Assembly: GCA_024689505.1 (NCBI GenBank) | Contig: JAILDJ010000157.1 | Location: forward strand, 1-56,840 | Reading direction: 5' to 3' | From: Clostridiales bacterium | Lineage (GTDB): Bacteria > Bacillota > Clostridia > Lachnospirales > Bianqueaceae | DNA: 56,840 nt | Part shown: piece after piece, positions 25,828 to 31,048 of the stretch | How positions within the stretch are numbered: the stretch's first letter is position 1 | Layout: the number at the start of each line of letters is the position of its first letter | Notes under the pieces: model-generated | The model's database searches: none | Seen by the model: the letters and a program-made list of their open reading frames with translations, nothing else | What the model was told of the DNA's origin: nothing | Position numbers and translations under genes: made by a program

Positions 25828-27099
25828 ATGGCTGATAACAAGCACTTTACCTGTTCCTTCTGTGGTAAAAGCCAGGACCAGGTCCGCAGGCTTCTTGCGG
25901 GCAACGGCGTCTATATCTGCGACGAATGCGTAGAGCTGTGCGCGGATATCATCGAGCGTGAGCTTGCTGAAACCGAAGACCAGGTCTTTGATGAGAAACT
26001 GCCGCGTCCGCGCGAGATCAAGGCCTTCCTTGATGAATATGTCATCGGCCAGGATCGTGCCAAGAAAGCACTTTCTGTCGCTGTGTACAATCATTACAAG
26101 CGGGTCTATACACATAACCGCATCGACGACGTGGAACTGCAGAAAAGCAATATCATCATGATCGGTCCAACGGGTTCCGGTAAAACATTCCTGGCGCAGA
26201 CGCTCGCAAAGATCCTGAACGTTCCCTTCGCGATCGCGGATGCTACCAGTCTTACGGAAGCCGGCTATGTTGGTGAAGACGTTGAGAATATTCTTCTCAA
26301 ACTGATCCAGGCTGCAGATCATGATATCGAACGGGCGGAACATGGCATCATCTATATCGATGAGATCGATAAGATCTCCCGTAAAAGCGAGAATCCGTCC
26401 ATCACCCGCGACGTCAGCGGTGAAGGTGTACAGCAGGCTCTGCTGAAGATCCTGGAAAGCACAGTAGCCAACGTCCCTCCGACCGGAGGCCGCAAACATC
26501 CGCAGCATGAGTTTATTCAGATCGATACCACGAACATCCTCTTTATCTGCGGCGGTGCTTTTGATGGGCTGGAGCGGATCGTCAAGAATCGTACCAATCA
26601 GCAGATGATCGGTTTCGATGCCGAGCACGCTGTGAAGAACGAGAAAGATCCGGATGCGTTGAAGGATCTGATGCCGCAGGATCTGATCAAGTATGGTCTG
26701 ATCCCCGAGTTCGTCGGCCGTCTTCCGGTCGTAGTTACGCTGGAAGGTCTGACCGAAGAGGCTTTGGTCCGCATCCTGAAAGAGCCGCGTAATTCGCTTG
26801 TCAAGCAGTACGAGACATTGTTTGCCATGGATGATGTGGACTTGCAGTTCGAGGATGAGGCTTTGCAGGAGATCGCCCATCTGGCGATGGAGCGCAAGAC
26901 CGGTGCCCGCGGTTTGAAAGCGGTCATCGAGGACGTCATGCAGGATCTCATGTTCGAGATCCCTTCCATGGATCATGTAGATCGTGTTACGATCACGAAA
27001 AAAGTGGTGGAGAAGCTTGCCGATCCGGAAATCGTTTTTGGAACGGCAGACAAGGAGAACTCTGCCAGAGACCGCGTTCTGAAAGGTCAGAGCGCCTGA
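25828..27099 (+). CDS. clpX: ClpX ATPase, unfoldase of ClpXP
   Basis: The 423-residue product has the N-terminal C4 zinc-binding domain (Cys9, Cys12, Cys31, Cys34), a Walker A at GPTGSGKT (residues 113-120), a Walker B at [10 protein letters not shown], the sensor region LFICGGAF, and the pore and ClpP-docking segments including [10 protein letters not shown] for the IGF loop. It recognises tagged substrates, unfolds them and feeds ClpP. A GC hairpin follows. Confidence 0.97.
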
Positions 27100-27120
27100 T
27101 CGATCTAAATAAAAAGAAAA

Positions 27121-27147
27121 GGCCGGGTATCTTGCCCGGCCCTCATT
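27121..27147 (+). terminator. GC-rich hairpin after clpX
   Basis: GGCCGGG and CCCGGCC pair perfectly around a 7-nt loop. The downstream tract CTCATTTAT is only moderately T-rich, so termination may be partial and engB may be read through. Confidence 0.5.
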
Positions 27148-27162
27148 TATAAAGGAGTCCAT

Positions 27163-27795
27163 ATGAAACTGCGTACCGTTGCTTTGGAAGCTGTCTGCGG
27201 GCGAAAGGATCAATTCCCGGAACCGCGTCTTCCTGAGATCTGCTTCATCGGCAGGTCCAACGTGGGTAAATCTTCACTGATCAATGCGTTGACCGGCAGA
27301 AAGGCTTTGGCGCGCACCAGTCAGTCGCCTGGAAAAACACGCACCATTAATTTCTACAGCGTCAACGATACGTTATATCTGGTAGACCTTCCCGGCTATG
27401 GATATGCTAAGGTCTCACAAGCGGAGCAGAAACGCTGGGGGCAGATCATCGAATCTTATCTTAAAGAGAGAGAATCCCTGTGTCTTGCCGTTCTGCTGGT
27501 CGATATCCGGCATGAGCCCGGAGAAGCGGACCGTATGATGTTCGACTGGATGCGCTATTATGGGATCGAGCCATTGATCGTTCTGACAAAGCTGGATAAG
27601 ATCAAAAAGAACCAGCTGCAGAAGCAGCTGGCTTTGATCGCACGTGGGCTTGGTGTTGAGGATCGAAACAACATCTTAGCCGTATCCTCCGAAACAAAAA
27701 CAGGGATCGATGCGCTTTGGCAGCGCATGGAAAGCGTGGCTTTTGAAGAAGAAGCTATTGACGAAGCTCCGACATCAGATTCCGAAAGATCGTAA
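27163..27795 (+). CDS. engB: Ribosome biogenesis GTPase EngB (YsxC/YihA)
   Basis: This 210-residue GTPase is needed for late 50S assembly. The G motifs are in order: G1 GRSNVGKS at 30-37, the G2 region SPGKTRTINFY, G3 DLPGYGYAK, and G4 TKLDK, with a G5-like AVSSETKTG. The C-terminus is slightly extended and acidic (EEEAIDEAPTSDSERS). AAAGGAG precedes the ATG. Its last 41 nt overlap, tail to tail, the opposing DUF4364 gene, and there is no terminator between them. Confidence 0.95.
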   Translation: MKLRTVALEAVCGRKDQFPEPRLPEICFIGRSNVGKSSLINALTGRKALARTSQSPGKTRTINFYSVNDTLYLVDLPGYGYAKVSQAEQKRWGQIIESYLKERESLCLAVLLVDIRHEPGEADRMMFDWMRYYGIEPLIVLTKLDKIKKNQLQKQLALIARGLGVEDRNNILAVSSETKTGIDALWQRMESVAFEEEAIDEAPTSDSERS

Positions 27796-28261
27796 GGCCG
27801 CGCTGCTGCCAACGGTTGCGCACAGCGAAGGCTTTTTCCTCATCCGGCGCATGTAGGCTCAACGAAAAGACGACGTGGTCATAATCACGGATGATGCAGT
27901 TCAAAGCGTATCCTTGCTCCGTCCGTTCGATCTCACAGTCGGCCTCCAGCATGGAAGAGCGTCGATAGGCTGAAGTCCTTGCATATTCGTTGATCTCATC
28001 TCGGATACTATTGGGGATGCGATACCGGAACGTGGTTACCACTTCGTCGCCCATAGGAGTAAGGGTATAGGAACCATCCATATCCAGAATGAGCTCGGCA
28101 TACAGGAGTTCCTCGATCAGCTCCTGCATGGTGAAATAATCCATATAGCCTTTAAAAACGATAAAGTCCGAAAGTTCGATGGCAGAAACGGTATCTTTCT
28201 GCTGAAGAATGTATAGAATGGTCAGTTTGTTTTCTGTAAGCTGTTGATCCGGTGTATTCAT
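27755..28261 (-). CDS. DUF4364 family winged-helix-like protein
   Basis: The 168-residue product starts MNTPDQQLTENKLTILYILQQ and has an N-terminal winged-helix-like half (LSDFIVFKGYMDYFTMQELIEELLYAELI, then a wing DGSYTLTPMGDEVV). The second half carries SIRDEINEYARTSAYRRSSM and a beta-rich end. This pattern is that of DUF4364, a clostridial/erysipelotrichial family with no agreed function. It overlaps the HPr-like gene upstream by 4 nt (ATGA), so the two are probably translated together, and a regulator that partners that protein is a reasonable guess. Confidence 0.8.
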   Translation of the reverse strand: MNTPDQQLTENKLTILYILQQKDTVSAIELSDFIVFKGYMDYFTMQELIEELLYAELILDMDGSYTLTPMGDEVVTTFRYRIPNSIRDEINEYARTSAYRRSSMLEADCEIERTEQGYALNCIIRDYDHVVFSLSLHAPDEEKAFAVRNRWQQRGLTIFRNLMSELRQ

Positions 28262-28506
28262 GCGTTGTCTGGCTCCTTTATCAAGAAACTGTCCAAAGCT
28301 TCCCGGATCGAGGGAACAGCTTTCTCATCATGGATGATCAGATCGAGCGGAGCGCTGATGTCCAGGCTGAAGATCCCCATGATGGATTTGGCATCGATGG
28401 TATAACGCCCTGTAGAGAGATCCATTTCGCAGGGGAAGCCGGAAACGATCTGCACGAACTGCTTTACTTTTTCGATCGTGTCGATGAGAACAGGCATCCT
28501 TGTCAC
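28258..28506 (-). CDS. HPr-like protein lacking the phosphorylatable histidine
   Basis: The 82-residue product fits the HPr fold: AKSIMGIFSLDI with Ser41 matches the Ser-46 regulatory motif of HPr, and a C-terminal helix follows. The active-site block Gly-Leu-His-Ala-Arg-Pro is missing; its place is taken by LIDTIEKVKQF, and there is no His in the first half of the protein. It cannot relay phosphate from EI to EIIA in the usual way. The start is GTG, because AGGAGG lies 10 nt upstream; an ATG three codons later is less well placed. It is coupled to the DUF4364 gene. A sensor or decoy for HPr kinase or CcpA-type signalling is possible but unproved. Confidence 0.75.
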   Translation of the reverse strand: MTRMPVLIDTIEKVKQFVQIVSGFPCEMDLSTGRYTIDAKSIMGIFSLDISAPLDLIIHDEKAVPSIREALDSFLIKEPDNA

Positions 28507-28544
28507 AGGTCTGACACCTCCTTTTGTAGAATTGCAACGATAAT

Positions 28545-28573
28545 ATTATCTAACAATTCAAAATATGTGTCAA
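28545..28573 (-). promoter_or_regulatory. Promoter for the HPr-like/DUF4364 pair
   Basis: On the minus strand, TTGACA, a 17-nt spacer and GATAAT. Confidence 0.7.
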
Positions 28574-28595
28574 TTGCCAAAATGATAAAAATGAG

Positions 28596-28624
28596 TTGAA
28601 AACAGGCCTGAATTTATATATAAT
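28596..28624 (+). promoter_or_regulatory. Promoter for mtaB
   Basis: TTGAAA, a 17-nt spacer and TATAAT, back to back with the minus-strand promoter. Confidence 0.75.
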
Positions 28625-28640
28625 AGAATAAGATTATTCT
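28625..28640. repeat. Palindrome at the mtaB transcription start
   Basis: AGAATAA-GA-TTATTCT begins right after the -10 hexamer and would cover the start site. It is an operator candidate. Confidence 0.45.
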
Positions 28641-28699
28641 GGCAGATCAGGGCTTGTACTGCGTTTTCCAGCAGTATGGGACGGAAAGGAGCGCATATA

Positions 28700-30004
28700 G
28701 TGAACGAACAGCGGGTACCGTACCGCGTCGCCTGTTATACCTTGGGCTGTAAAGTCAATGGGTACGAATCCCAGGCCATGCTCGAGCAGTTCGAGCGGGC
28801 GGGGTGGACCATTGTGGAAGCCGATCAGGCAGCGGACGTGTATCTTGTCAATACATGTACGGTCACGCAGATCGCCGCTCATAAGTCCAGACAGATCCTG
28901 AACCGTATCGCGCGGCTGAATCCGGATGCGCTGGTCGTTGCCTGCGGATGTTACGTGGATCAGAAGGAGCGTCAGCAGGAGCCATTGGGCGGAGCCTGCG
29001 GTCTCATTGTCACGAACCGTGAAAAACCGCATATCGTTCAGTTGGTGGAAGCACGTTTGGACCTTCCCGCGGATGAAGGCCGGGATTTCTATATTTCTTC
29101 CAGCGGTGCTCATACACGTGCCTTTTTAAAAGTCCAGGATGGCTGCAGGCAGTTTTGCTCCTATTGCATCATTCCTTATGTACGCGGCCCATTGGTCAGC
29201 AAACCTCTGGAGCAAGCAATGCAGGAAGCACGAATGCTTTCGGAGAGCGGCTGCAGGGAGATCGTCCTCACCGGGATCCATCTAAGCTCCTACGGCAGAG
29301 ATCTGCCGGAAGATATCGGCCTTGCGGATCTCATCCTAGCGTTGGAAGCCGTTGAGGGCTTGGACAGGATCCGGCTCGGGTCTCTGGAAGTCGGGCTCAT
29401 CGATGATGCTTTCATAGCAAGGGTCAGGGATTGCCGTAAATTATGTCCGCATTTCCATCTGTCCCTGCAGAGCGGATGTGAGAAAACATTGAAAGCCATG
29501 AACCGTCGCTATACACCGGACCAGTTCATGGAGGCAGTACAGAGGATCCGTGCAGCATTTCCTGACGCTGCAATTACGACGGATGTCATCACGGGTTTTC
29601 CGGGAGAAACCGATAAGGATTTTGAAGAATCATTGCAGTTCGTTCATGACGTCTCCTTCGCGGATCTTCATGTCTTCCCATATTCGCCACGGGAGGGCAC
29701 AGCGGCGGCGCAAAGGAAGGATCAGATCGATAAGTCGGTCAAACAGGAGCGCAGCAGCCGGATGATCGAGCTTGGAGCCGCCTTACAGCGGCAGTTTGGA
29801 GCCGCCTATTCCGGTAAGGACGTGGAAGTCCTGACGGAAGAATATGACCCGGAACAGGATGTATGGGTCGGTTATACGCCCAATTACCTGCGTGTACACG
29901 TCCATGGTATGATTCAACGGAATCAATTGATTCCGGTCCATATAGAAAATGTGCATCAAACAAACAACGGGATCTATGCAGAGGGGTTTTATGATGAACG
30001 ATAA
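28700..30004 (+). CDS. mtaB: tRNA t6A37 methylthiotransferase
   Basis: MtaB converts t6A37 to ms2t6A37 in tRNAs that read ANN codons. The 434-residue product has an N-terminal domain with three cluster cysteines (TLGCKVNGYESQAM, VNTCTVTQ, VACGCYVDQ), a radical SAM core with CRQFCSYC, and a C-terminal TRAM-like region. The GTG start is chosen because AAAGGAG lies 8 nt upstream; an in-frame ATG 24 nt earlier lacks such a site. The family resemblance is closer to MtaB than to MiaB (CKVN rather than CQMN). The next gene overlaps by 11 nt. Confidence 0.9.
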   Translation: MNEQRVPYRVACYTLGCKVNGYESQAMLEQFERAGWTIVEADQAADVYLVNTCTVTQIAAHKSRQILNRIARLNPDALVVACGCYVDQKERQQEPLGGACGLIVTNREKPHIVQLVEARLDLPADEGRDFYISSSGAHTRAFLKVQDGCRQFCSYCIIPYVRGPLVSKPLEQAMQEARMLSESGCREIVLTGIHLSSYGRDLPEDIGLADLILALEAVEGLDRIRLGSLEVGLIDDAFIARVRDCRKLCPHFHLSLQSGCEKTLKAMNRRYTPDQFMEAVQRIRAAFPDAAITTDVITGFPGETDKDFEESLQFVHDVSFADLHVFPYSPREGTAAAQRKDQIDKSVKQERSSRMIELGAALQRQFGAAYSGKDVEVLTEEYDPEQDVWVGYTPNYLRVHVHGMIQRNQLIPVHIENVHQTNNGIYAEGFYDER

Positions 30005-30269
30005 CAGAACTCAGTACTTCAGTGTGATCAATGAATCGGAAAACAGAGTTTCCAATATCCTGATCGATGTGTATCAGGCGCTGATCCAGAAGGGCTACAA
30101 CCCTGTCAATCAGATGACGGGCTATATCATGTCCGGAGACCCGACTTATATCACCGGATATAATAACTCACGCAGCAAGATCACACAGATCAATCGTGAT
30201 GATATCGTCGAGGAGCTGGTACGCGCCTTCGTCGAATACCATCATCTTAATGATGCAAAGGATCGCTGA
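29994..30269 (+). CDS. ireB: IreB family regulatory phosphoprotein (UPF0297)
   Basis: The 91-residue product has FSVINESENRVSNILIDVYQAL, QKGYNPVNQMTGYIMSGDPTYITGYNNSRSKI and a terminal DIVEELVRAFVEYHH, matching IreB/YrzL along its whole length. In enterococci IreB is phosphorylated by the PASTA kinase IreK and restrains intrinsic cephalosporin resistance. GAGGGG lies 7 nt before the chosen ATG; an ATG one codon earlier is possible. As usual it is followed directly by ruvX; the kinase is not in the window. Confidence 0.85.
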   Translation: MNDNRTQYFSVINESENRVSNILIDVYQALIQKGYNPVNQMTGYIMSGDPTYITGYNNSRSKITQINRDDIVEELVRAFVEYHHLNDAKDR

Positions 30270-31048
30270 TGCGTGTCCTGGGACTTGATTACGGTGAGAA
30301 GACCGTAGGGGTTGCTATCTCCGACCCGGATCGAAAGATCTCAGTGCCTTTGGAAACGATCAAGCGTGAGGATCCGGCAGCGTTGAAGCAGACCATCCAG
30401 CGGATCCGTTCCATCGTTACCGCAGAGGGTGTGGATACGATCGTACTGGGTCTTCCGCGCAATATGGATGGTTCTGAAGGAGAACGAGCGGAGAAGACCC
30501 GCGCTTTTAAGAAACGTCTTGAGCGCGATGTGTACCGCGTTACAGTGGTATTATGGGACGAGCGGCTGACTACCGTTGCGGCTGAACGCCCTTTAAAAGA
30601 ACTGCACAAAAACCGTTTTGAGCGAAAAGAAGTCGTGGACAGCATGGCTGCCGCACTCATCCTGCAAGGATATCTGGACAGCCTGCAAAGAAAAGAGGAG
30701 ATCGTCATGGAACAGGAAGAGCGTCAGATCATCTTATATGAACCCGAAGAACAGTTGAAATCCACGATGAATGTCTTTGCGTCTCTTACTCTTGAAGATA
30801 CGCAGTATTTTCTCGCCGCGGTCGCCTATGAGGATGACGACCTCGATGAGGAGGAAGATTTTGATGAAGAAGATGGTGTATTCATCTTTCGGATCTGCGG
30901 TGCAGAAGAAGCAGAATTTATGGTCCTGAAAGAGGATGGCATCACAGATTATTACGTAACGACTGAACTGGGAGATAGGATGCAGGAAGTCATTGAAGCG
31001 TTCCAGGATATGGACGATGATTTTGACCTTATTACCGACGAGGACTGA
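30269..31048 (+). CDS. ruvX: RuvX (YqgF) resolvase-like nuclease fused to a DUF1292 domain
   Basis: Residues 1 to about 140 are RuvX/YqgF: LGLDYGEKTVGVAISD with the catalytic Asp, VLGLPRNMDGSEGERA, LWDERLTTVAAE and DSMAAALILQGYLD. YqgF acts in 16S rRNA 5' end maturation and is related to Holliday junction resolvases. Without a stop, the frame runs on into a DUF1292 (YrzB-like) domain from about residue 147: an acidic stretch (EDDDLDEEEDFDEEDG), then FIFRICGAEEAEFMVL. These are normally two genes. An ATG at 30707 begins the second domain and has AGAGGAG 6 nt upstream, so the DUF1292 part may also be made alone. The start follows ireB with a one-base overlap. Confidence 0.88.
   Translation: MRVLGLDYGEKTVGVAISDPDRKISVPLETIKREDPAALKQTIQRIRSIVTAEGVDTIVLGLPRNMDGSEGERAEKTRAFKKRLERDVYRVTVVLWDERLTTVAAERPLKELHKNRFERKEVVDSMAAALILQGYLDSLQRKEEIVMEQEERQIILYEPEEQLKSTMNVFASLTLEDTQYFLAAVAYEDDDLDEEEDFDEEDGVFIFRICGAEEAEFMVLKEDGITDYYVTTELGDRMQEVIEAFQDMDDDFDLITDED

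Follow-up and report, generated by a model that had tools for sequence, protein, structure and literature searches.

HPrL, an HPr-like protein encoded in the window (the whole stretch of 56,840 nucleotides analysed here), is most likely a Crh-like protein, though not Crh itself, that serves as a serine-only regulatory substrate of HPr kinase/phosphorylase (HprK). We infer this function from the predicted fold of HPrL, the loss of the loop with His15 and Arg17, the conserved serine motif, the single clade formed by HPrL proteins and their co-distribution with HprK. On the same grounds, we consider it rather likely that HPrL is an HPr paralogue that has departed from the PTS and become dedicated to HprK. 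It belongs to a widespread, apparently unstudied bacterial protein family. The features of the locus are the following.

28258..28506, minus strand: HPr-like gene (HPrL), GTG start, 82 aa, predicted HPr fold, no phosphotransfer His
28375..28389, minus strand: K-S-I-M-G motif, residues 40-44, invariant in 40/40 aligned sequences (for the relatives' loci partly an ascertainment effect, because KSIMGIFS was one of the six search patterns)
28384..28386, minus strand: codon of Ser41, the equivalent of HPr Ser46 and presumed HprK target
28471..28488, minus strand: residues 7-12, comprising the shortened active-site loop and the first part of helix 1, with Thr10 near the place of His15
28517..28525, minus strand: ribosome binding site AAAAGGAGG ahead of the HPrL GTG, read from the sequence
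28545..28573, minus strand: promoter-like TTGACA-17-GATAAT for HPrL, 11/12 positions matching
28596..28624, plus strand: promoter-like TTGAAA-17-TATAAT for the divergent mtaB, from a promoter scan
28676..30004, plus strand: mtaB (tRNA methylthiotransferase), the divergent neighbour, beside HPrL in 72/80 relatives' loci
27755..28261, minus strand: DUF4364 protein, 168 aa, probable winged helix (PF14277, E 1.9e-34; HTH_45, E 2.3e-4, below its cut-off)
28258..28261, minus strand: ATGA stop/start overlap of HPrL and DUF4364

The sequence D-A-K-S-I-M-G-I-F-S is intact in HPrL. The Ser46 equivalent was found in all 138 distinct HPrL sequences, the class loci among which were gathered with a pattern that requires Ser; all 38 class loci (L151-L188) nonetheless carry Ser. 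The N-terminal region of HPrL contains no His, Thr10 being the nearest equivalent of His15, and none of the 138 sequences has His at the His15 position. The residue near this place is Ser in 123 relatives, Thr in 12, Gln in two and Met in one, and in five of the 138 a His lies one residue before it. The preliminary description had stated that the serine site is kept and the phosphotransfer His lost, and both statements hold. The conservation of this pattern also shows that the HPrL gene is real. The same description had the Gly-Leu-His-Ala-Arg-Pro block replaced by another sequence. The His is indeed gone, but alignment with 24 full-length HPr and Crh-type proteins revealed a deletion of three residues in HPrL (LNS---IDKVK versus SGLHARPA), so that the loop is better described as shortened. 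In this alignment, the Arg17 stretch of HPrL proteins is deleted or has Asp, Glu or Asn. Because the gap falls at G-L-H-A-R-P, the phosphotransfer centre, His15 together with Arg17, has been cut out and not merely mutated. As had been proposed, HPrL cannot act as a normal PTS phosphocarrier, since both residues are missing. The position of HPr Met51 is Phe in HPrL.

Pfam PTS-HPr (PF00381) matches residues 15-51 of HPrL (E 6.3e-6, 26.6 bits, cut-off 23) and all 40 members of the relatives' alignment; a caution follows for annotation, as Pfam HPr-family matches include proteins unable to carry PTS phosphate. NCBIfam HPr models scored below their cut-offs on HPrL (TIGR01003, 23.1 bits versus a curated 47.9), a PHROGs search with HPrL gave nothing, and no Rfam family was found in 26500-30500. 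An own TTGACA promoter had also been claimed for HPrL. The two promoter-like sites are positioned as expected for the promoters of two divergent genes, but the scan found 2 such sites versus 1.7 expected by shuffling; therefore, the HPrL promoter is well placed and weak by count.

Structure prediction also places HPrL in the HPr family. The AlphaFold model, calculated with 40 sequences (the window and relatives), has a mean pLDDT of 91.7 and a pTM of 0.80, and shows the HPr fold along the full length. The top Foldseek matches, and their ranking by VIA-align, are HPr and Crh structures; E. coli HPr superimposes with Z 9.9 over 75 residues at 2.2 A. In the model, only a short link joins strand 1 (residues 2-6) to helix 1 (residues 11-21). 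Profile matches of HPrL in the PDB are headed by 3ihs (Bacillus anthracis HPr) and Bacillus subtilis Crh, followed by other HPr structures.

HPrL proteins form one clade. When 142 HPr-type proteins were placed in a tree, the 46 rows of HPrL and its variants grouped together with branch support 100/99, and a smaller tree agreed (36 HPrL among 60 rows, support 100/100); both trees were built from short rows, leave many inner forks unresolved and do not contain B. subtilis Crh. Three of the 38 class loci were left out of the first tree by an exact-motif criterion and are included in the second, from which the straggler L259 is omitted. The relatives' locus set was reduced to 102 by removal of duplicates and of L098, L105 and L107 (no ORF), and the HPrL profile and alignment consist of 39 of 80 loci plus the window, with L089 and L101 (stop codon in the matched range), L098 and L107 omitted. 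By protein search, HPrL is present in 42 of 58 related genomes. A profile search detected it at E 1e-15 or better in 83 of 147 genomes of the class, which are a single sample of genomes at least 90% complete (146 of the 147 have a family label); 10 of the 93 genomes with any match had only weak ones (E > 1e-15) and were not counted as carriers. Some members have particular surroundings. HPrL variants with KSILG (L262, L263, L264, L269, L270) adjoin genes that by eye encode 2-hydroxyacyl-CoA dehydratase-like components and an activase, and in family f36 (L165, L181, L186) the HPrL gene is followed directly by ireB and ruvX, all in one orientation. No description of a loop-deleted, separate HPr clade was found by searches of the open-licence PubMed Central literature. 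His-less HPr proteins such as Crh are already known; a loop-deleted HPr clade with its own distribution would be new.

The distribution of HPrL follows that of HprK. HprK was found in 80 of the 83 HPrL genomes of the class versus 35 of 64 non-carriers (Fisher p 1e-9), and by family in 34/34 with HPrL versus 17/25 without (p 5e-4); these statistics ignore phylogeny, and the association could come partly from shared ancestry. A count by eye in the 58 relatives gave HprK in 41 of the 42 carriers and in 12 of the 16 genomes without HPrL. The HPrL genomes without HprK are G143, G176 and G193 in the class, which are drafts 90-94% complete, and G024 among the relatives, which is 80% complete. B. subtilis possesses HprK. 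The HprK search gave no match in B. subtilis, one of its 14 control genomes, and some of the HprK absences may therefore be false. Among the class genomes listed without any PF00381 match, 20/20 have neither HPrL nor HprK. Furthermore, HPrL is the sole HPr-family protein detected beside HprK in nine genomes of families f5, f36 and f57: the relatives G022 and G056 and the class genomes G068, G145, G166, G089, G114, G137 and G158 (f36, f57), in which the lone PF00381 match was assigned to HPrL by E-value. No Crh-type gene was found in the retrieved hprK surroundings of these nine genomes; in G056, the region contains hprK, murB, rapZ and whiA (named by eye) and no HPr gene. Linkage of HPrL genes to hprK was not found. 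Reading of the protein by HPr kinase, which had been put forward as a possibility, is the best explanation of this distribution. HPr also contacts HPr kinase near the His15 side, so that recognition of HPrL by HprK is not assured.

His15 and Ser46 were also surveyed in the PF00381 proteins other than HPrL in the 58 relatives, three divergent stragglers among them. Where such a protein is encoded no more than 6 kb from Enzyme I, His15 is always there (34/34), and 21 of the 34 keep Ser46. Within 40 kb of hprK, 38 of 39 other proteins lack His15 (34 have Glu, two Asp, one Ile and one Val), the exception sitting 39.8 kb away, and Ser46 is kept in 39/39. Enzyme I itself is absent from 28 of the 58 relatives and from 21 of the 42 with HPrL, and is present in the window's own genome. 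In the window's family (f1), Ser46 is replaced by Gln, Lys or Arg in 10/10 HPr proteins linked to Enzyme I (L142, L144, L146, L219 and others); thus, if HPr-type proteins are its targets, HprK would be limited in this family to the hprK-linked protein and HPrL. The labour looks to be split three ways here, among an Enzyme I-linked HPr with His15 and no Ser46, an hprK-linked HPr with Ser46 and no His15, and HPrL. In the window's genome, the HPr linked to hprK (L001, G000:C9:13081-13317) was considered as a canonical HPr and rejected, as it reads GMEAAA, with no His, while NAKSIMG is kept. Enzyme I of this genome (G000:C10:14-379) begins 14 bases into its contig, on the side on which ptsH lies in relatives. 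The lack of a His-type HPr in this genome is for this reason probably an assembly artefact at the contig end and not a true absence, ptsH being probably missing from the assembly.

A second proposal concerned the adjacent gene. HPrL and DUF4364 are coupled by ATGA, as had been described; the 4-base overlap recurs in the congener L034, and the gap is about 14 bases in the congener L006. It had been suggested that the two form a regulatory pair, which could be looked for in other genomes. From 80 loci collected by tblastn and the 58 relatives (three adjacent pairs and six more within less than 4 kb, all f1), the pairing seemed confined to the window's genus, but the class sample overturned this view. 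DUF4364 is present in 75 of the 83 HPrL genomes; in 13 of these 75, from 6 of 33 families (f1, f27, f39, f40, f59, f78), it directly follows HPrL in the same orientation. The adjacent pairs come from no fewer than three parts of the HPrL tree. The flanks of the adjacent pair differ by eye, with mtaB in f1, f39 and f40 and 2-hydroxyacyl-CoA dehydratase/activase-like genes in f27, f59 and f78, which favours function over frozen gene order. It is thus possible, although we would not bet on it, that HPrL and DUF4364 are a two-part regulator in which Ser-phosphorylated HPrL binds the winged-helix protein and thereby governs how it binds DNA. The remaining counts speak against it. In 62 of the 75 genomes with both genes the two are not adjacent: they lie within 15 kb in 10 (downstream and on the same strand in seven of those), far apart on one contig in seven and on separate contigs in 45, where, the genomes being drafts, closeness is sometimes still possible. 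Only one of 80 mostly Lachnospiraceae loci has DUF4364 in the retrieved flank of HPrL (6 kb or less). Moreover, DUF4364 occurs without HPrL in 58 genomes, and eight HPrL genomes lack DUF4364, including three of the four f57 genomes with HPrL as their only HPr; therefore, the two are not an obligate pair. The preliminary description had named unlinked genes in most genomes as the finding that would speak against its pair, and these counts do so; the linkage survives in a minority of genomes and in several families. The AlphaFold model of DUF4364, made with two sequences, had a pLDDT of 44.5 and was set aside, PHROGs gave an unknown family only, and the word DUF4364 was not found in the open-licence PubMed Central literature.

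The other neighbours raise a further explanation, namely that HPrL is a phosphorylation-independent helper of tRNA thiolation genes (mtaB, thiI). A divergent mtaB lies within 900 nt in 72/80 loci and a convergent thiI-like gene within 3 kb in 60/80, but these genes are on opposite strands, neighbours vary among families, yet the Ser motif stays and so does the association with HprK; we regard this explanation as very improbable. In the window, engB converges toward the HPrL-DUF4364 side and mtaB diverges; the 3' ends of engB and DUF4364, which lie on opposite strands, share 41 bases (27755-27795). It is also unlikely, if less so, that HPrL is a second Crh, acting via some LacI-family regulator, be it a divergent CcpA or another. 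The place of Crh near the head of the PDB profile matches is in line with this, and Crh likewise lacks His15 (PMC3526391). CcpA-profile candidates below cut-off were seen in many genomes at a first look. Against these points, classical CcpA (NCBIfam TIGR01481 over cut-off) was found in none of the 58 relatives by a search that was positive in B. subtilis and Lactococcus lactis, and HPrL has neither the loop nor Arg17. Arg17 of HPr is a CcpA contact. The hprK-linked paralogue, with 38/39 proteins lacking His15, is in addition the more obvious Crh. A CcpA-like partner, which had been suggested for HPrL, is accordingly weakened: with the loop and Arg17 lost and no match to classical CcpA over the cut-off, the partner is probably not CcpA, although LacI-family relatives could do the job of CcpA.

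HPrL as an HprK substrate would work as follows. It is established how HprK works chemically and that it responds to ATP and fructose-1,6-bisphosphate. At high levels of ATP and glycolytic intermediates, Ser41 of HPrL would be phosphorylated by HprK; phosphorylated (or plain) HPrL may then bind a regulator and alter gene expression or enzyme activity; and when energy drops, HprK would take the phosphate off again. As a broader and more speculative proposal, which we put forward tentatively, HPrL might be the effector arm of a PTS- and CcpA-independent catabolite control across Clostridia, in which HprK writes the energy state on a loop-deleted HPr that acts via a regulator of a new class; in some lineages this would be DUF4364. 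HPrL bears on how gut and rumen Clostridia without Enzyme I or classical CcpA use HprK to sense their carbon status. Lineages in which the HprK-associated, serine-only HPrL is the sole HPr make this question directly testable.

HPrL can be compared with three known systems. The PTS phosphocarrier HPr shares the fold and the Ser46 site with HPrL, whereas HPrL lacks His15 and Arg17, is unlinked to Enzyme I and is found where Enzyme I is absent. The HPr-family structure 7ff5 from Ruminiclostridium cellulolyticum, which may be the Crh-like Ccel_0806, is clostridial like HPrL, but its match to the hprK-linked type (E 1.2e-15) is far stronger than that to HPrL (E 9.4e-4). Its organism is reported to have no HPr ortholog or cognate PTS EII (PMC3656788). 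Crh is a His-less HPr-type protein (PMC3526391), and B. subtilis Crh resembles HPrL in its HPr fold, the absence of His15, the KSIMG serine motif and a presumed role as HprK substrate outside the PTS. The two differ in that the alignment of the HPrL profile with Crh starts only at helix 1 and that HPrL has the shortened loop and no Arg17. In addition, HPrL is not at the hprK-linked position, which another His-less paralogue occupies, and it forms a clade of its own apart from that hprK-linked type, in trees that held no B. subtilis Crh.
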